This document shows positions 1,307 through 48,883 of a stretch of 48,883 nucleotides of DNA, piece by piece. The position numbers were made by a program, and so were the translations under genes. Source of the stretch: Bacteroidota bacterium (lineage in GTDB: Bacteria > Bacteroidota > Bacteroidia > JABEUT01); NCBI GenBank assembly GCA_013289165.1, contig JABDAL010000012.1:1-48883 (forward strand), given 5' to 3'. The notes under the pieces are model-generated. The model did not search any database, was not told the origin of the DNA, and saw only the letters and a list, made by a program, of their open reading frames with translations. How positions within the stretch are numbered: the first letter of the stretch is position 1; each line of letters opens with the position of its first letter.

Positions 1307-3925
1307 ATGAACGAGATTTCAAAAATATACGAGCCTCAAAAGTGTGAAGAGAAGTGGTATTCCTATTGGCTGGAAAAGGGTTATTTTCATTCTGAGCCGG
1401 ATGAGCGCGAGCCATACACTATGGTTATTCCTCCGCCTAATGTAACTGGTATGCTTCACATGGGCCATGTGTTGAATAACACTATACAGGATGTGCTTGT
1501 ACGCAGGGCAAGGATGAAAGGTAAAAATACCTGCTGGGTTCCGGGCACAGACCATGCATCTATTGCGACCGAAGCAAAGGTAGTGGGAATGTTGAAAGAA
1601 AAGGGTATTAAGAAAAGTGATTTAACCCGCGAGGAGTTTCTTAAATATGCCTGGGAATGGAAAGAAAAATATGGAGGAATAATAGTAGAGCAAGTAAAAA
1701 AATTAGGGTGTTCGTGCGACTGGGACAGGCTACGTTTCACTATGGAGAAGGATTTGAACGATGCCGTAATTCATGTGTTTGTAGACTTATATAAAAAAGG
1801 ATGTATATACCGGGGCGTACGGATGATAAACTGGGACCCGAAAGGGCTTACTGCCGTTTCGGATGAAGAGGTTAACTATAAAGAGGTGGATTCAAAATTA
1901 TATTATGTAAAATATAAAGTTGAAAACACTGCCGATGAATGGATAACCATTGCCACTACCCGTCCTGAAACCATACTGGGCGATACGGCAGTTTGTGTTC
2001 ATCCCAATGATGCACGCTACAAGAATCTAGTTGGGAAACATGCTATCATTCCTATAGTAAATCGTTCTGTGCCTATTATTGCGGATGAATATATAACTAT
2101 GGAGTTTGGCACTGGCGCGCTCAAAGTAACTCCTGCCCACGACATCAATGACTATAATCTTGGATTAAAACACAATCTTCCCATTATAGATACTATTAAT
2201 CCGGATGGAACAATGAGTAAGGAAGCCGGATTTTATATAGGTGAGGATCGTTTTGTAGTGAGAGAAAAAATTGCAAAGGACCTTGCTGCAATGGGGCAGG
2301 TAGTAAAGGTTGAAAATATCCACAACAAAGTCGGTTTTTCAGAACGTACGGATGCTGTAATTGAGCCAAAGCTATCACTGCAGTGGTTCTTAAAAATGGA
2401 TAAGCTTTCCAGGCCAGCATTAGAAAATGTGCTTAACGGGACCATAAAACTTATTCCCGATAAGTTTTTAAATACCTACCGCCATTGGATGGAGAACGTT
2501 CATGACTGGTGTATATCACGACAACTTTGGTGGGGACAACAAATACCTGCATGGTATTGCAAGGATGCGAAGAAGCCCGAATGCCGCGAAACTATAGTTT
2601 CAGAAATGGCTCCAACCAGCTGCCCTCATTGTGGTTCTAAAAATCTGGTGCAGGATGAAGATGTTTTAGATACATGGTTCTCATCCTGGTTATGGCCTAT
2701 AAGTGTTTTTGATGGTTTTAAATATCCCAATAATAAAGACATAAGTTATTACTATCCTACCAACGATTTAGTAACTGCCCCTGAAATACTTTTCTTTTGG
2801 GTAGCACGGATGATTATTGCGGGATATGAATACATGGGTAGGGAACCATTCACGAACGTATACCTAACAGGTATTGTGCGCGATAAAATAGGCAGGAAAA
2901 TGAGCAAGTCGCTGGGCAATTCCCCTGACCCGATTGACCTTTTTGCCCAATATGGTGCTGATGGAGTTCGGGTGGGAATTTTGCTTTGCTCACCTGCCGG
3001 AAATGACTTAACTTTTGATGAATCACTGTGTGAACAAGGAAGAAATTTTGCCAATAAACTATGGAATTCATTCCGGCTTATAAGTACATGGAATCCTGCG
3101 GAAATTAAACCCACTGAAGATGCTTTGCAAAATATAGTTTGGTTTAAAAATAAATTGGACGAAGAGATAGAAATCATTGAACAGGATTTTTCATCCTACC
3201 GTATTTCAGAAGCATTTATGGCAACCTATAAATTAATATGGGATGATTTTTGCTCGGATTACCTGGAAAGAATTAAGATCTCTTGCAGGGATGGAGTGCC
3301 TCAACAAATTTATGATGTTACTGTTAGTTATCTCGAAGCACTTTTAAAATTGACTCATCCGTTTATGCCTTTCATTACAGAAGAAATATGGGATAATATA
3401 AAAGCGAGAACCGATAAAGAAAGGATCATTATTGCTTCTTACCCCGTAGCTGAAATACATGATAAAATTCTATTGGGTCATTTTGAAGACATACGAAAAT
3501 CATTTGTAAGAAATGGTCGCAGCTTGCACCAACAAATAAATGTGCCACTTAAGAACAGGCTCATTTTAGTGTCTCCCAATCCTTCTGCCGTTGGGTTGGC
3601 AAGTTCAGATTTGGAATTGGCCGGTGTGGAATACAATCCCAATTTTAAAAATACAACAACTGATAAACTAAGCTTTGTATTGAAAGATTTTGAATTTTCG
3701 TTTTATCTCCCTGAAGGTGTGGTTTTAAATAAAGATGAGGAAAAGGAAAAATTAAAAAAGGAGTTAGAATATTATCAAGGTTTTCTAAAATCAGTTGAAA
3801 CTAAGCTTGCTAACCAGAAGTTTGTCAATAATGCAAAGCCGGAGATAATTCAGAATGAAAGAAACAAAAAGGCTGATGCAGAATCAAAAATCGCCGCTTT
3901 GCAAAAACAATTGGGAAGTTTCTAA
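1307..3925 (+). CDS. valS: Valine--tRNA ligase
   Basis: 872 aa; class I HIGH-type motif PPPNVTGMLHMGHVLNNT, GRKMSKSLGNSPDP (KMSKS), editing-domain TTRPETILGDTAVCVHP, C-terminal coiled-coil arm. Confidence 0.97.
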   Translation: MNEISKIYEPQKCEEKWYSYWLEKGYFHSEPDEREPYTMVIPPPNVTGMLHMGHVLNNTIQDVLVRRARMKGKNTCWVPGTDHASIATEAKVVGMLKEKGIKKSDLTREEFLKYAWEWKEKYGGIIVEQVKKLGCSCDWDRLRFTMEKDLNDAVIHVFVDLYKKGCIYRGVRMINWDPKGLTAVSDEEVNYKEVDSKLYYVKYKVENTADEWITIATTRPETILGDTAVCVHPNDARYKNLVGKHAIIPIVNRSVPIIADEYITMEFGTGALKVTPAHDINDYNLGLKHNLPIIDTINPDGTMSKEAGFYIGEDRFVVREKIAKDLAAMGQVVKVENIHNKVGFSERTDAVIEPKLSLQWFLKMDKLSRPALENVLNGTIKLIPDKFLNTYRHWMENVHDWCISRQLWWGQQIPAWYCKDAKKPECRETIVSEMAPTSCPHCGSKNLVQDEDVLDTWFSSWLWPISVFDGFKYPNNKDISYYYPTNDLVTAPEILFFWVARMIIAGYEYMGREPFTNVYLTGIVRDKIGRKMSKSLGNSPDPIDLFAQYGADGVRVGILLCSPAGNDLTFDESLCEQGRNFANKLWNSFRLISTWNPAEIKPTEDALQNIVWFKNKLDEEIEIIEQDFSSYRISEAFMATYKLIWDDFCSDYLERIKISCRDGVPQQIYDVTVSYLEALLKLTHPFMPFITEEIWDNIKARTDKERIIIASYPVAEIHDKILLGHFEDIRKSFVRNGRSLHQQINVPLKNRLILVSPNPSAVGLASSDLELAGVEYNPNFKNTTTDKLSFVLKDFEFSFYLPEGVVLNKDEEKEKLKKELEYYQGFLKSVETKLANQKFVNNAKPEIIQNERNKKADAESKIAALQKQLGSF

Positions 3926-39408: not shown

Positions 39409-40414
39409 ATGAATATACCAATCAAATTAATTGTTATGAGCACTTTATTGATTAACTCGATTGCTAAAGCACAACAACCCTCTATGAAACCTCTTGATGC
39501 TGACCTGACTGAATACCAATATCCTTACCCGGTGCATTTTATCACACTGACTATTCAGGGTGAAGTTTTAAAAATGGCTTATATGGATGTGAAGCCCGTT
39601 AATCCAAATGGGCATGTAATAATGCTTTTGCATGGAAAAAATTTCAATGGTTTCTATTGGGGAGAAACTGCAAAGGTTTTATCTGATAGTGGCTACAGGG
39701 TTATTATTCCTGATCAGATTGGTTTTGGAAAGTCATCCAAGCCCGAACATATTCAGTACTCGTTTCAGTTGTTGAGTGAAAATACAAAAGCAATATTAGA
39801 TTCGCTGGGTATTAAAAAAGGTTTGCATGTTGGGGCATTCTATGGGTGGCATGGTTGCAACCCGGTTTACATTGATGTACCCCGAAATGGTAGAGAAATT
39901 CATTTTGGAAAACCCTATTGGTCTGGAAGACTGGAAAGTAAAAGTACCTTACCTGTCCGTTGATAAATGGTATCAAATAGAATTAAAAGAGGATTATAAT
40001 TCTTTTAAAAAATATGAACTTGAAAGTTATTTTCATGGTACGTGGAGAGCCGATTATGATAAATTGCTGGAAATTCCGGTAGGATGGACTCTAAGCAAAG
40101 ATTATCCCCGTATTGCATGGAATTCTGCTCTTACGTATGAAATGATTTTTACACAACCAGTGTGCTATGAATTTGAAAATATCAAGGCACCTACATTGTT
40201 AATCATTGGACAGTTAGACAGAACAGCAATGGGTAAGAATCTGGTGAGTGAAGAAGTAGCAAAAAAATCGGGCAATTACCCTGCATTAGGGAAATTGACT
40301 CATGAAAAGATAAAAGGATCAAAGCTTGTTGAACTTGACGGAATAGGCCATGTGCCACACATCGAAGCCTTTGACAGATTTATTCAGCCATTATTGGAGT
40401 TTCTGAAATCATAA
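39409..40414 (+). pseudogene. Alpha/beta hydrolase, split by a +1 nt frameshift
   Basis: N-terminal part 39409-39963 (signal peptide, 'MLLHGKNFNGFYWGETAKVLSDSGYRVIIPDQIGFGKSSKP') and 39827-40414 ('MLGHSMGGMVATRFTLMYPEMVEKFILENPIGL...GIGHVPHIEAFDRF'); frames join at attaaaaaaggtttgcatg (~39810-39828). Confidence 0.85.
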
Positions 40415-44352: not shown

Positions 44353-44934
44353 TCAGATTAAAGGAGTAGTAAATCTTATGTGGTCGTCGTTTGTGGTAAA
44401 GAACCGTGTTCCCGTACCTGTTCCCTCATAAGGAAATGTAAGTTTATTCATTGTTGCGGAATATAAGTCTATTTTCTCCCGGACTTCATTCTTATAGTCC
44501 TTCCAAAAACGCATTACGAAACCAGAAATCAAATCCGCAATCTGAAGGTAGATATTTGATTGGGAGTCTTGGAAGTATAAATTATTTGCCTCGTTTATGC
44601 TGTATGTTTCATATTTCAATGAGATAATATCGCCTACTAACTCATCAGTATTAAGTTTTTTCATTCTTTCAAAAGCCGACCGATAAATAATGCCATTGTG
44701 TTCCTCCATATCATGAACTATATTGAATTGTCCTGATAGGAAATCGTTACTGTATTTTTGCGCTCTTGCAAGAATGCCTGTAAATGCACTGAAGCCAGTT
44801 AGGAAATGAATAGATTTATTATGAGGATTCTGGTCGGGCAACGGTAGGTAGTTTTTTAGCACACTCTCGCCCCCTTTTGATAGATCTGCTACTAAATCAG
44901 TCTTTGTGTGGATCACATGGTTTTTTAATTCCAC
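44353..44934 (-). CDS. DUF3800-like protein (N-terminal motif not seen, possibly truncated)
   Basis: 'FNIVHDMEEHN...LYFQDSQSNIYLQIADLISGFVMRF' resembles the DUF3800 C-terminal region. Confidence 0.5.
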   Translation of the reverse strand: MELKNHVIHTKTDLVADLSKGGESVLKNYLPLPDQNPHNKSIHFLTGFSAFTGILARAQKYSNDFLSGQFNIVHDMEEHNGIIYRSAFERMKKLNTDELVGDIISLKYETYSINEANNLYFQDSQSNIYLQIADLISGFVMRFWKDYKNEVREKIDLYSATMNKLTFPYEGTGTGTRFFTTNDDHIRFTTPLI

Positions 44935-45005
44935 GTCATTTTGTAATGTGAAATATTCAAATAATCAATAAAATACGTATAAGGTCACATTTCCACAAAA
45001 AGAAA

Positions 45006-45046
45006 CTGCCAAAACATTTTTAAGCTGCCAAAACACTGCCAAAACA
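45006..45046. repeat. Three copies of CTGCCAAAACA
   Basis: 45006-45016, 45025-45035 and 45036-45046, direct orientation. Confidence 0.85.
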
Positions 45047-45138
45047 AAAGTGAGCGGATGTGAGTAGGTGTGAATCCATGTTAGAAGCCCAGTATTTACA
45101 GGTGCAGCCGTGGCTTATTATGAAGCGATATGAACCCC

Positions 45139-45190
45139 AAAGTGAGGTCCCGGGCGGATTTGAACCACTGTACATGTTGAATCCGCACCT
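45139..45190 (-). other. tRNA-3'-end-like sequence (T-arm/acceptor-like), candidate attachment-site remnant
   Basis: Minus strand: GTACAGTGGTTCAAATCCGCCCGGGACCTCACTTT; GGTTCAAATCC T-loop-like core but no complete cloverleaf. Confidence 0.35.
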
Positions 45191-45269
45191 ATCCTTTTAA
45201 TGGTAGAGGAATCAATTGTACTGGGAAATTATGGAGGAGTGAGAATTTTATATCCAGCAACTTAACCCA

Positions 45270-45341
45270 CTATAATATATACTGGGAGTAAGAGAGCGAA
45301 AAAATGAAAATGAAAAATGAAAACAGGAATAACTTCTTCAT
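45270..45341 (-). pseudogene. Orphan signal peptide: 5' relic of a third GloVer paralog
   Basis: MKKLFLFSFFIFIFSLSYSQYIL* aligns with MKKLSLFLFFIFSFSFSYSQYILYGV of the 45393-46850 gene; upstream DNA is also similar. Confidence 0.8.
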
Positions 45342-45392
45342 TTAAGAGCAGTTTCGATGTGTAAATATAGTAATAAAAAAGAGGCGGAAAAC

Positions 45393-46850
45393 CTAACGTT
45401 CCACTCCAAGTTTGCCCTCCCCAGCAAGGCTACCCTCTTGGGTAAGCACCCTGTAAAAATATACCCCTGCCGGTTGATTGCTTAAATTTATTTCTGTAGT
45501 TGTGGAATTTACACTACCCGCATACACCTTTTCCCCAAGCACATCGTATATTTCTATTATGTTTCTGGTTCCCGGTTCGTAATTGCTAATTTGAAGTGTA
45601 AATACCCCCCTGCCCGGGTTGGGGTATGCCTTTACACTGCCTTGTGGAGCATGTATACTATTAACCCCTAAATGAATAGCCGTATCTACCAACGTTAAGC
45701 TACCTACGGGATAAGCTCCATTGGGGCCTGTAAAGTCAAGTAATTTGGTGTAGATATTGGTAGTTATATCATAGCTGAAAAGTACTCCATATCCGGCACT
45801 ACCTCCATTGGAGGTAGTACCATACAGCAACCCGTTATCCGGGTCTTGGACAAGAGAACCATAGGAATTACTGCCATCCGTACCATTAAAGGTTACTAAT
45901 ACTTTTTCGGTATTGTTTGCAGGGTTGAAGCTAAAAAGTACCCCGTCTCTCGCTGCATCTCCTCCTCCATAGGTCATACCATAAAGTAGGCCATTGGATA
46001 ATTGAAGCAATTCATTCGTGTTCGGATAGGCTCCATACTTTCCGCCAAACGAGTAAACCACGTTTACACTACCTGTTTGAGTATTGAACGTATAAATAGC
46101 TCCCGAATCGGCTTTTCCACCTGCTTGGGATGTTCCGTAAAGCAAGCCATTGTTTGCCTTAATAAGCCCGCTGGTTGGTTCATTAGGACTATTATTAAAA
46201 CTAACGTATACACTGTCCTTATTGGTTTTAGGATTAAAGCCATATAGTACTCCGTTCCCAAACTTACCTCCGCCTTCGGTTACTCCATATAGGATACCAC
46301 TTGCCGTATCCTCCCATAATTCCATAAAGCTCCCCCAACCTGTAACTGTATCTACTAAATTATACTGTACACTGTCTTTCCCGGTATGGATGTCATAATT
46401 ATAGATTACCCCTCCACCATATTTTCCACCCTGCCATGATGTTCCATAAATCAGCCCATTTTTAGCCTGCATAAGCTGATTATCGCCATCGTTGGTATAA
46501 CCATTTGTACTGTCGTAGTTAATTACCACATTTTCGGTGTTGGTTTTTAAATTAAAACTGAACACAGTTCCCATACCATTAACTCCTCCTTGAGCTGTCG
46601 TTCCATATACTAGGCTATCCGGAACATAGAGTAATTTTGATACAGGTCCAAATCCATTAGTCCCGTTAAAACTAAAAAGTATGGTTTGTTTTTTGGTTAA
46701 GGGGTTATAGCTGAATATGGTGCCATACTTAGCGGGCTCATTGGGGTCATAATATGCTCCCCCTCCTCCCGTTACTCCATATAATATATACTGGGAGTAA
46801 GAAAATGAAAAGCTGAAAATGAAAAATAAAAATAGTGATAACTTCTTCAT
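45393..46850 (-). CDS. GloVer tandem-repeat (TIGR03803-like) secreted protein with T9SS type A sorting domain
   Basis: Signal peptide; repeats 'GLLYGTxxxGGxxxxGVLFSFN'; C-terminal 'VKAYPNPGRGVFTLQI...GVYFYRVLTQEGSLAGEGKLGVER'. Confidence 0.9.
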   Translation of the reverse strand: MKKLSLFLFFIFSFSFSYSQYILYGVTGGGGAYYDPNEPAKYGTIFSYNPLTKKQTILFSFNGTNGFGPVSKLLYVPDSLVYGTTAQGGVNGMGTVFSFNLKTNTENVVINYDSTNGYTNDGDNQLMQAKNGLIYGTSWQGGKYGGGVIYNYDIHTGKDSVQYNLVDTVTGWGSFMELWEDTASGILYGVTEGGGKFGNGVLYGFNPKTNKDSVYVSFNNSPNEPTSGLIKANNGLLYGTSQAGGKADSGAIYTFNTQTGSVNVVYSFGGKYGAYPNTNELLQLSNGLLYGMTYGGGDAARDGVLFSFNPANNTEKVLVTFNGTDGSNSYGSLVQDPDNGLLYGTTSNGGSAGYGVLFSYDITTNIYTKLLDFTGPNGAYPVGSLTLVDTAIHLGVNSIHAPQGSVKAYPNPGRGVFTLQISNYEPGTRNIIEIYDVLGEKVYAGSVNSTTTEINLSNQPAGVYFYRVLTQEGSLAGEGKLGVER

Positions 46851-46900
46851 TTAAGCACAGTTTCAATATGTAAATATAGGAAATAAAAACGGGCGGAAAC

Positions 46901-48366
46901 TTACCGTTCCACTACAAGTTTGCCCTCTCCAATAAGGCTACCCTCTAGGGTAAGCACCCTGTAAAGATATATCCCATTCGGTTGATTGCTTAAATTTATT
47001 TCTGTAGTTGTAGAATTTACACTGCCCGCATACACTTTCTCCCCAAGCACATCGTATATTTCTATTACATTCTTAGCTTCAGCTCCGTAATTATTGATTT
47101 GAAGTGTAAACACCCCCCTGCCAGGATTAGGGTATACCTTTACACTGCCTTGTGGAACATTTATACTATTAACCCCTGTATGAATAGCCGTATCTACCAA
47201 AGCTAAGCCTATAGGATAAGTTCCATTGGAGCCTGTAAAGTCAAGTAATTTGGTGTAGGTATTGGTAGTTATATCATAGCTGAAAAGAACTCCATATCCG
47301 GCACTCCCTCCATAGGTTGTAGTTCCATATATTAAGCCATTATCAGGGTCCTGAACAAGATTGCCTTGCGGGATTCTGCCATCCGTGCCATTAAAGGTTA
47401 CTAATACTTTTTCGGTATTGTTTGAAGGGTTGAAGCTAAAAAGTACCCCGTCTCCTGCTGCATCCCCTCCTCCCCAAGTCGCACCATAAAGTAAGCCATT
47501 GGATAATTGAAGTAATTCATTCGCATTTGGGTAGCCCCCGTGCATTCCGCTAAACTGGTAAACCATGTTCATAGCACCCGAATGGGTGTTAAACGTATAA
47601 ATAGTTCCTGAATCGGGTTTTCCGCCCGCGTCGGACATCCCGTAAAGCAAGCCATTGCTTGCCCGGATAAGCCCGCCTCTTGGTTGATAAGGCCCATTAT
47701 TAGGAGATAATTTAAAATCAACATATACACTGTCCCGGTTCGTTTTAGGATTAAATCCATACAGCACGCCCTGACCAGCCCCCCCGTCCTCTGTCGTTCC
47801 ATAAAGTATGCCGCTCACCGTATCCTCCCATAATTCCATATAGCATCCCGAACCTGTAACTGTATCTAATAAATTATAACGTACACTGTCTTTCCCGGTA
47901 TGAATATCGTAACTATAGATTACCCCTGCACCATATTTTCCGCCCATCCAGGATGTTCCATAAATTAGCCCGTTTTTTGCCTGCATCAGTTGATTAACGC
48001 CAAGGTTTGTATAACCATTTGCGCTGTCATAATTAATTACCACATTTTCGGTGTTGGTTTTTAAATTAAAACTGAACACAGTTCCCATACTATTAGCTCC
48101 CCCTTGATTAGTGGTTCCATAAACTAAGCTATCCGGAACATACAGTAATCTGCACAAAGGTTCAAATCCATCCGTCCCGTTAAAACTAAAAAGTGTGGTT
48201 TGTTTTTTGGTTAGGGGGTTATAGTTGAATATAGTGCCATACTTAGTGGGATCATTGGGATCATAATATGCTCCCCCCCCCCTGCCGCTACTCCATATAA
48301 TATGTACTGGGAGTAACAAAATGAAAAACTGAAAACGAAAAGTAATAAGATAGTTAGCTTTTTCAT
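46901..48366 (-). CDS. GloVer tandem-repeat secreted protein with T9SS sorting domain, currently out of frame at a G10 tract
   Basis: ATG at 48366 (MKKLTILLLFVFSFSFCYSQYILYGVAAGGG) is in a different frame from the 472-aa body (GGGAYYDPNDPTKYGTIFNYNPL...); frames meet at C10 (48273-48282). Confidence 0.85.
48273..48282 (-). repeat. Homopolymer tract (G)10 on the coding strand
   Basis: ctCCCCCCCCCCtgcc on the plus strand. Confidence 0.95.
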
Positions 48367-48394
48367 TTATAGGAATATATTAATATGTAAATAT

Positions 48395-48433
48395 AGGAAA
48401 TAAAAACGGGCGGAAAAGACTTACGCCCGTTTT
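48395..48433 (-). terminator. Intrinsic terminator for the minus-strand T9SS protein gene
   Basis: Perfect 10-bp stem AAAACGGGCG (48403-48412)/CGCCCGTTTT (48424-48433), followed in the minus direction by TTTTTATTT. Confidence 0.8.
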
Positions 48434-48436
48434 ACC

Positions 48437-48883
48437 TTATCTTTCTATTAATAAATTATCCGTTTTTACAGGTTTTTGGTTATTGTCTATAATCCGATAA
48501 TGGTAGACACCTTGTGCCAATGAACCTACCGGTATAGTGGTCAGGTTACTTGTCAACGAATAAGTGAGGGTTAACTGGCCTAACCCGTTATATAAATATA
48601 TCGTTCCTGTCATTTCCTGCCCAATAAATTCGACATTAAGCAAGGTATTGGCAGGGTTAGGATATACTTTAACTGTCAGGTTCTTATTATCAGGTACAGT
48701 GCTTTGCGTACTTGCCGGTTTCTTTACAGGCCGGTGCGCGTATGCACGCCCATTGCCATATATCTCCTCGCAAGCACTGTAGTAATCGGTGGAGTCTATA
48801 GGGGCTAACAGGGCCCTGGCTAAATACACCCCTGTACCATATTGATAAGGGCATAGTGGTGCATATTGCTGGAGTATGGATTT
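48437..48883 (-). CDS. Secreted protein with T9SS type A sorting domain, C-terminal part (5' end beyond window)
   Basis: Open frame to the window edge 'KSILQQYAPLCPYQYGTGVYLARALLAPIDSTDYYSACEE...VKVYPNPANTLLNVEF...GVYHYRIIDNNQKPVKTDNLLIER'. Confidence 0.85.
   Translation of the reverse strand, partial: KSILQQYAPLCPYQYGTGVYLARALLAPIDSTDYYSACEEIYGNGRAYAHRPVKKPASTQSTVPDNKNLTVKVYPNPANTLLNVEFIGQEMTGTIYLYNGLGQLTLTYSLTSNLTTIPVGSLAQGVYHYRIIDNNQKPVKTDNLLIER

Follow-up and report, generated by a model that had tools for sequence, protein, structure and literature searches.

A pure G10 tract just past the signal peptide makes a T9SS-type GloVer gene of Bacteroidota a candidate slippage-prone OFF allele

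Poly-G switches and the setting of the locus

Switching by slippage in poly-G tracts is textbook knowledge for the contingency (phase-variable) loci of Neisseria, Helicobacter and Campylobacter. The gene described here resembles these poly-G/C loci in that a tract within the range G8 to G12 lies in the frame of a surface gene, where a change in length switches the frame; it differs from them in that those loci are documented to vary between strains or reads, whereas the focal gene is known from one consensus MAG-like assembly and its tract is not conserved. Homopolymeric tracts have also been described as a general gene-inactivation system of prokaryotes, and in that survey the tracts are mainly short poly-A/T runs with a 5' bias, poly-G being generally under-represented (Orsi et al. 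2010, PMC2831843). The focal tract shares with that system a coding homopolymer near the 5' end that would inactivate its gene reversibly, but unlike most of those tracts it is poly-G. Within the Bacteroidota, a putative mechanism of phase variation has been put forward for the FSD adhesins of Ornithobacterium hominis (PMC13183296); these, too, are surface proteins for which phase variation has been suggested, but they belong to a different protein family, and the passages found in the paper's main text do not name the mechanism. By family, repeat and sorting domain, the focal gene is like GloVer (TIGR03803) cargo of T9SS type A. The switching mechanism is of a known kind, and no report of slippage-based switching in T9SS or GloVer cargo was found in open-licence PMC papers.

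The window corresponds to the complete contig C12 (48,883 bases), part of a 70%-complete genome of 2.2 Mb in 116 contigs. Its end carries, on the minus strand, a T9SS surface gene of which only the 3' end is present, followed by the focal GloVer gene and then by a GloVer paralogue in tandem with it (Table 1). The probable terminator of the T9SS gene has an 11-base loop, which exceeds the limits of our hairpin scan, and its repeat was read from the sequence directly. The TATATTT element upstream of the focal ATG is kept in eight of eight aligned copies, two same-genus species among them, and it resembles the TAnnTTTG -7 element of Bacteroidota. Elsewhere in the window, an alpha/beta hydrolase gene (39409-40414, plus strand) is divided at about 39827-39963 into two frames that overlap; no long homopolymer is present there, and the split is an ordinary frameshift or an assembly error.

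Table 1. Features at the end of the window, all on the minus strand.
Feature	Position	Strand	Basis or remark
T9SS surface gene upstream of the focal gene, 3' end only	48437..48883	-	cut by the contig end
Probable terminator of the T9SS gene: inverted repeat ACGGGCG/CGCCCGT, then T-run	48404..48430	-	read directly
TATATTT, promoter -7-like element, 23-29 bases 5' of the focal ATG	48389..48395	-	conserved in aligned copies
Signal peptide region, codons 1-20, ATG frame	48307..48366	-	aligns with paralogue N-termini; signal peptide judged by eye
Pure G10 tract	48273..48282	-	directly after codon 28; shifts GloVer body out of frame
Premature TAA closing the 51-aa product, assembled state	48211..48213	-	read from ATG frame
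GloVer body and T9SS type A sorting domain, 457 codons, other frame	46901..48274	-	TIGR03803 181 bits, Por_Secre_tail
Tandem GloVer/T9SS paralogue, in frame, 485 aa, interrupted G run	45393..46850	-	Kelch-like beta-propeller model

A gene divided between two frames

What does the assembled allele encode? From the ATG at 48366, 28 codons (MKKLTILLLFVFSFSFCYSQYILYGVAA) are followed by exactly ten Gs (48282-48273), and this frame stops after 51 aa; the GloVer body then runs for 457 codons without a stop, from 48274 to 46904, in a frame other than that of the ATG. Both observations bear out the sequence-only reading, which held that a G10 run after the signal peptide throws the gene out of frame and that the body resumes in another. 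The body is in frame only when the tract length equals 2 mod 3, as with G8 or G11. That reading also had G8 giving exactly the length of the tandem paralogue; G8 does reproduce the paralogue's spacing exactly at this site, but indels further along would bring the whole protein to 487 aa against 485. The six GloVer repeats score 181 bits against a curated cut-off of 44, and the gene carries the two ends of a T9SS type A cargo protein, an N-terminal signal peptide (judged by eye) and a C-terminal Por_Secre_tail, which in the assembled allele lie in different frames. Like the signal peptide, the mature N-terminus matches the tandem paralogue.

As in contingency loci, then, a long pure tract sets the reading frame of a gene that is otherwise intact and selected: no further stop or frameshift was found in the 457 codons of the body, and its pairwise dN/dS of 0.23-0.37 against the paralogues points to purifying selection. 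The lesion is therefore either recent or reversible, since the signal peptide, the promoter-like element, the body and the sorting domain have all stayed intact and the body shows this selection.

We propose that the product would be a Sec-exported, T9SS-sorted, Kelch-type beta-propeller protein of the GloVer family, and that a Gly-Gly-Gly stretch past its signal peptide may have been turned into a pure G tract. Such a tract would gain or lose Gs by slipped-strand mispairing during replication; the assembled G10 would be an OFF length, leaving the 51-aa stub and no secreted protein, and G8 or G11 would be ON. We give about an even chance to this account of G10 as a slippage-made OFF state of a GloVer propeller. 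Slippage as the cause of the lesion, and its reversibility in the living population, are inferred. The focal gene is most likely a real, slippage-prone OFF allele that could in principle revert, and adaptive phase variation of this gene is possible.

Sibling copies and an expanding family

Where the focal gene has G10, the tandem paralogue has GGGAGGAGGGGGA and stays in frame, so that the interrupted run ascribed to it is confirmed. The G runs of the paralogues on contig C43 are interrupted likewise. Contingency loci would be expected to keep the tract in orthologues, in different phases; none of the paralogues or relatives examined carries the focal tract, and the similar tracts that the sequence-only reading had proposed to look for in other GloVer genes of the genome and in relatives did not appear in any copy examined.

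C43 carries two further GloVer copies, one of them intact and the other broken, and C93 carries a third, which is broken and has a deletion. The C43 pair (L060, C43:8000-18000) follows a second copy of the upstream T9SS surface gene, 88.8% identical in DNA, and its two GloVer types stand in swapped order with respect to window positions 44900-48883: the focal gene is nearest C43_2 (dS 0.24-0.25) and the tandem paralogue is nearest C43_1 (dS 0.31). The duplicated tandem pair behind a T9SS gene represents a local gene-family expansion with recombination. A scan of genome contigs yielded only three relatives, all of them distant at about 33% identity. The model of the intact paralogue, built from only 5 sequences (mean pLDDT 72), is a beta-propeller with a C-terminal beta domain, and Kelch propellers and designed six-bladed propellers are among its best matches of solved structure; the paralogue therefore probably serves in binding, either at the cell surface or after secretion.

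The breaks in C43_2 and C93 are ordinary lesions away from any G tract, so the GloVer family can simply decay. They favour a recent one-way loss, in which slippage at a chance G tract disabled one copy of an expanded, dispensable family and switching was never selected. Homologues without the tract, and the ordinary tract counts and missing 5' bias reported below, fit such a loss as well, and surface genes would tolerate such tracts because selection on them is weak. Yet the focal body is otherwise intact and bears the mark of past purifying selection, and a pure G10 is still mutable, so that a loss there is not one-way; we consider this explanation rather unlikely.

Long G tracts in the genome and its relatives

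The 2.2 Mb genome contains three G10 tracts, where the decay of shorter runs predicts about 0.5 (P about 0.02-0.03), and GGG makes up 18% of Gly codons, so that GGG-GGG-GGN at a Gly triplet suffices for G8. The tract alone is therefore only mildly unusual; what is informative is that it breaks the frame. The reading frame is broken at 6 of the genome's 15 tracts of at least G8: in the focal gene, a T9SS cargo gene (C18), a YCF48/RHS-type giant gene (C35), a DUF2807 gene (C31), an outer-membrane-like gene (C54) and a D12 methyltransferase remnant (C59). Breaks depend on length, with 0/52 at G6-7 (counted on GC runs in sampled DNA), 2/9 at G8 and 4/6 at G9-10 (Fisher 5e-5). In the 449 kb sample from which the run statistics derive, no genome-wide over-representation of G tracts was found, the run-length decay being near geometric; counts of tracts of at least G9 in the genus show no excess and are ordinary for the class. 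Nor was a 5' bias found among broken genes, whose tracts lie at 0.06-0.65 of gene length; the focal and C18 tracts are early, and most others are not. Features expected of maintained contingency loci (tract conservation, 5' bias, genome-wide excess) are thus missing, and the proposal of a phase-variable locus holds only in part. What stands is an otherwise intact, selected gene turned off at a slippage-prone G10 just past the signal peptide, and a type of break that recurs at tracts of at least G9 in surface genes of the genus but spares every cytoplasmic gene examined; the evidence does not bear out a classic, maintained contingency locus.

A phase-variable DNA methyltransferase at the G8 on C59 was considered and rejected. 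This D12-class gene (L076, about 2771-3375), broken at G8, is a remnant because its N-terminus is absent upstream in every frame.

Could the tract lengths simply be wrong? An assembly or sequencing error in a gene that is truly G8 or G11, and in frame, is improbable, although there is one assembly, long G runs are error-prone, the length-dependent breaks would also fit read or PCR slippage, and the same contig holds a frameshift away from any tract (39827-39963). Scrambled lengths would hit cytoplasmic enzymes equally, but in the same and related assemblies G9-10 tracts break 0/9 non-surface genes against 12/17 surface-type genes (P 7e-4, post hoc), a difference that argues against mere sequencing error; these classes were assigned after the data were seen and partly by eye, so the contrast is supportive rather than proof. 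In the genus alone, 9/13 surface genes are broken against 0/3 non-surface genes (P 0.06). The in-frame genes with G9-10 include methylmalonyl-CoA mutase, DHFR, TrxB, HisF, RodA and others, and the methylmalonyl-CoA mutase of the focal gene's own genome, on contig C9, has an in-frame G10. The contrast is accounted for by selection that purges enzyme alleles once they are broken, whereas surface genes drift or switch.

Poly-G/C runs of 14-15 also occur at contig ends in relatives, at L187 (end of G006:C108) and at the starts of L181 and L186. Beside the run in L187 the translation resembles a known sequencing-adapter peptide, so the relatives' assemblies carry contig-end artefacts, a point in favour of length error; contig-terminal poly-G in relatives was excluded as likely artefact.

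Across 11 same-genus genomes, five tracts of at least G9 break a frame, four of them in T9SS/CHU_C cargo: one T9SS gene each in G004 and G006, and three genes in G008, where G9-10 tracts interrupt an SprB/CHU_C adhesin, a DUF7948/T9SS protein and an RHS protein (L157, L159, L160). No break was found at the G8 tracts examined in these genomes. Three more genes, in other families of the class, are broken at tracts of G10-11: a T9SS gene (L242) and two of surface type (L245, L251). Coding tracts of at least G9 in the genus fall in T9SS genes in 10 of 16 cases, compared with about 12% of the G5-7 runs sampled in the focal gene's own genome, an excess that could stem from relaxed constraint and Gly-rich repeats.

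The shift needed to restore the frame is +1 at eight of eleven broken tracts and -1 at three, that is, in both directions, as slippage predicts. It bears also on programmed -1 ribosomal frameshifting, or RNA-polymerase slippage on the G run, as a source of full protein from the G10 allele. The focal gene does need a -1 shift on a G run, a plausible slippery sequence, but the opposite shift is needed at 8/11 similar tracts, and the paralogues have neither tract nor frameshift there; we hold this explanation very improbable.

A better lead than the focal gene is the set of long G tracts that break surface genes across the genus and class. That they make up an unrecognised poly-G phasome of free-living Bacteroidia, in which T9SS cargo, SprB-type adhesins and RHS proteins, the GloVer gene included, would be switched by slippage, seems to us doubtful. 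If reads showed the tract lengths to be mixed, the classic contingency genes of pathogens would have counterparts in the T9SS surface proteins of uncultured environmental bacteria; many T9SS "pseudogenes" in Bacteroidota assemblies would in that case be OFF states, with consequences for gene calling and for ideas on phage, grazer and surface interactions. Finally, we note that one genome of the same class (G018, family f8) has 164 tracts of at least G9 in 4.0 Mb, far above most relatives, at about 44% GC in the loci seen; its enzyme tracts examined are in frame, and one surface-gene tract is out of frame.
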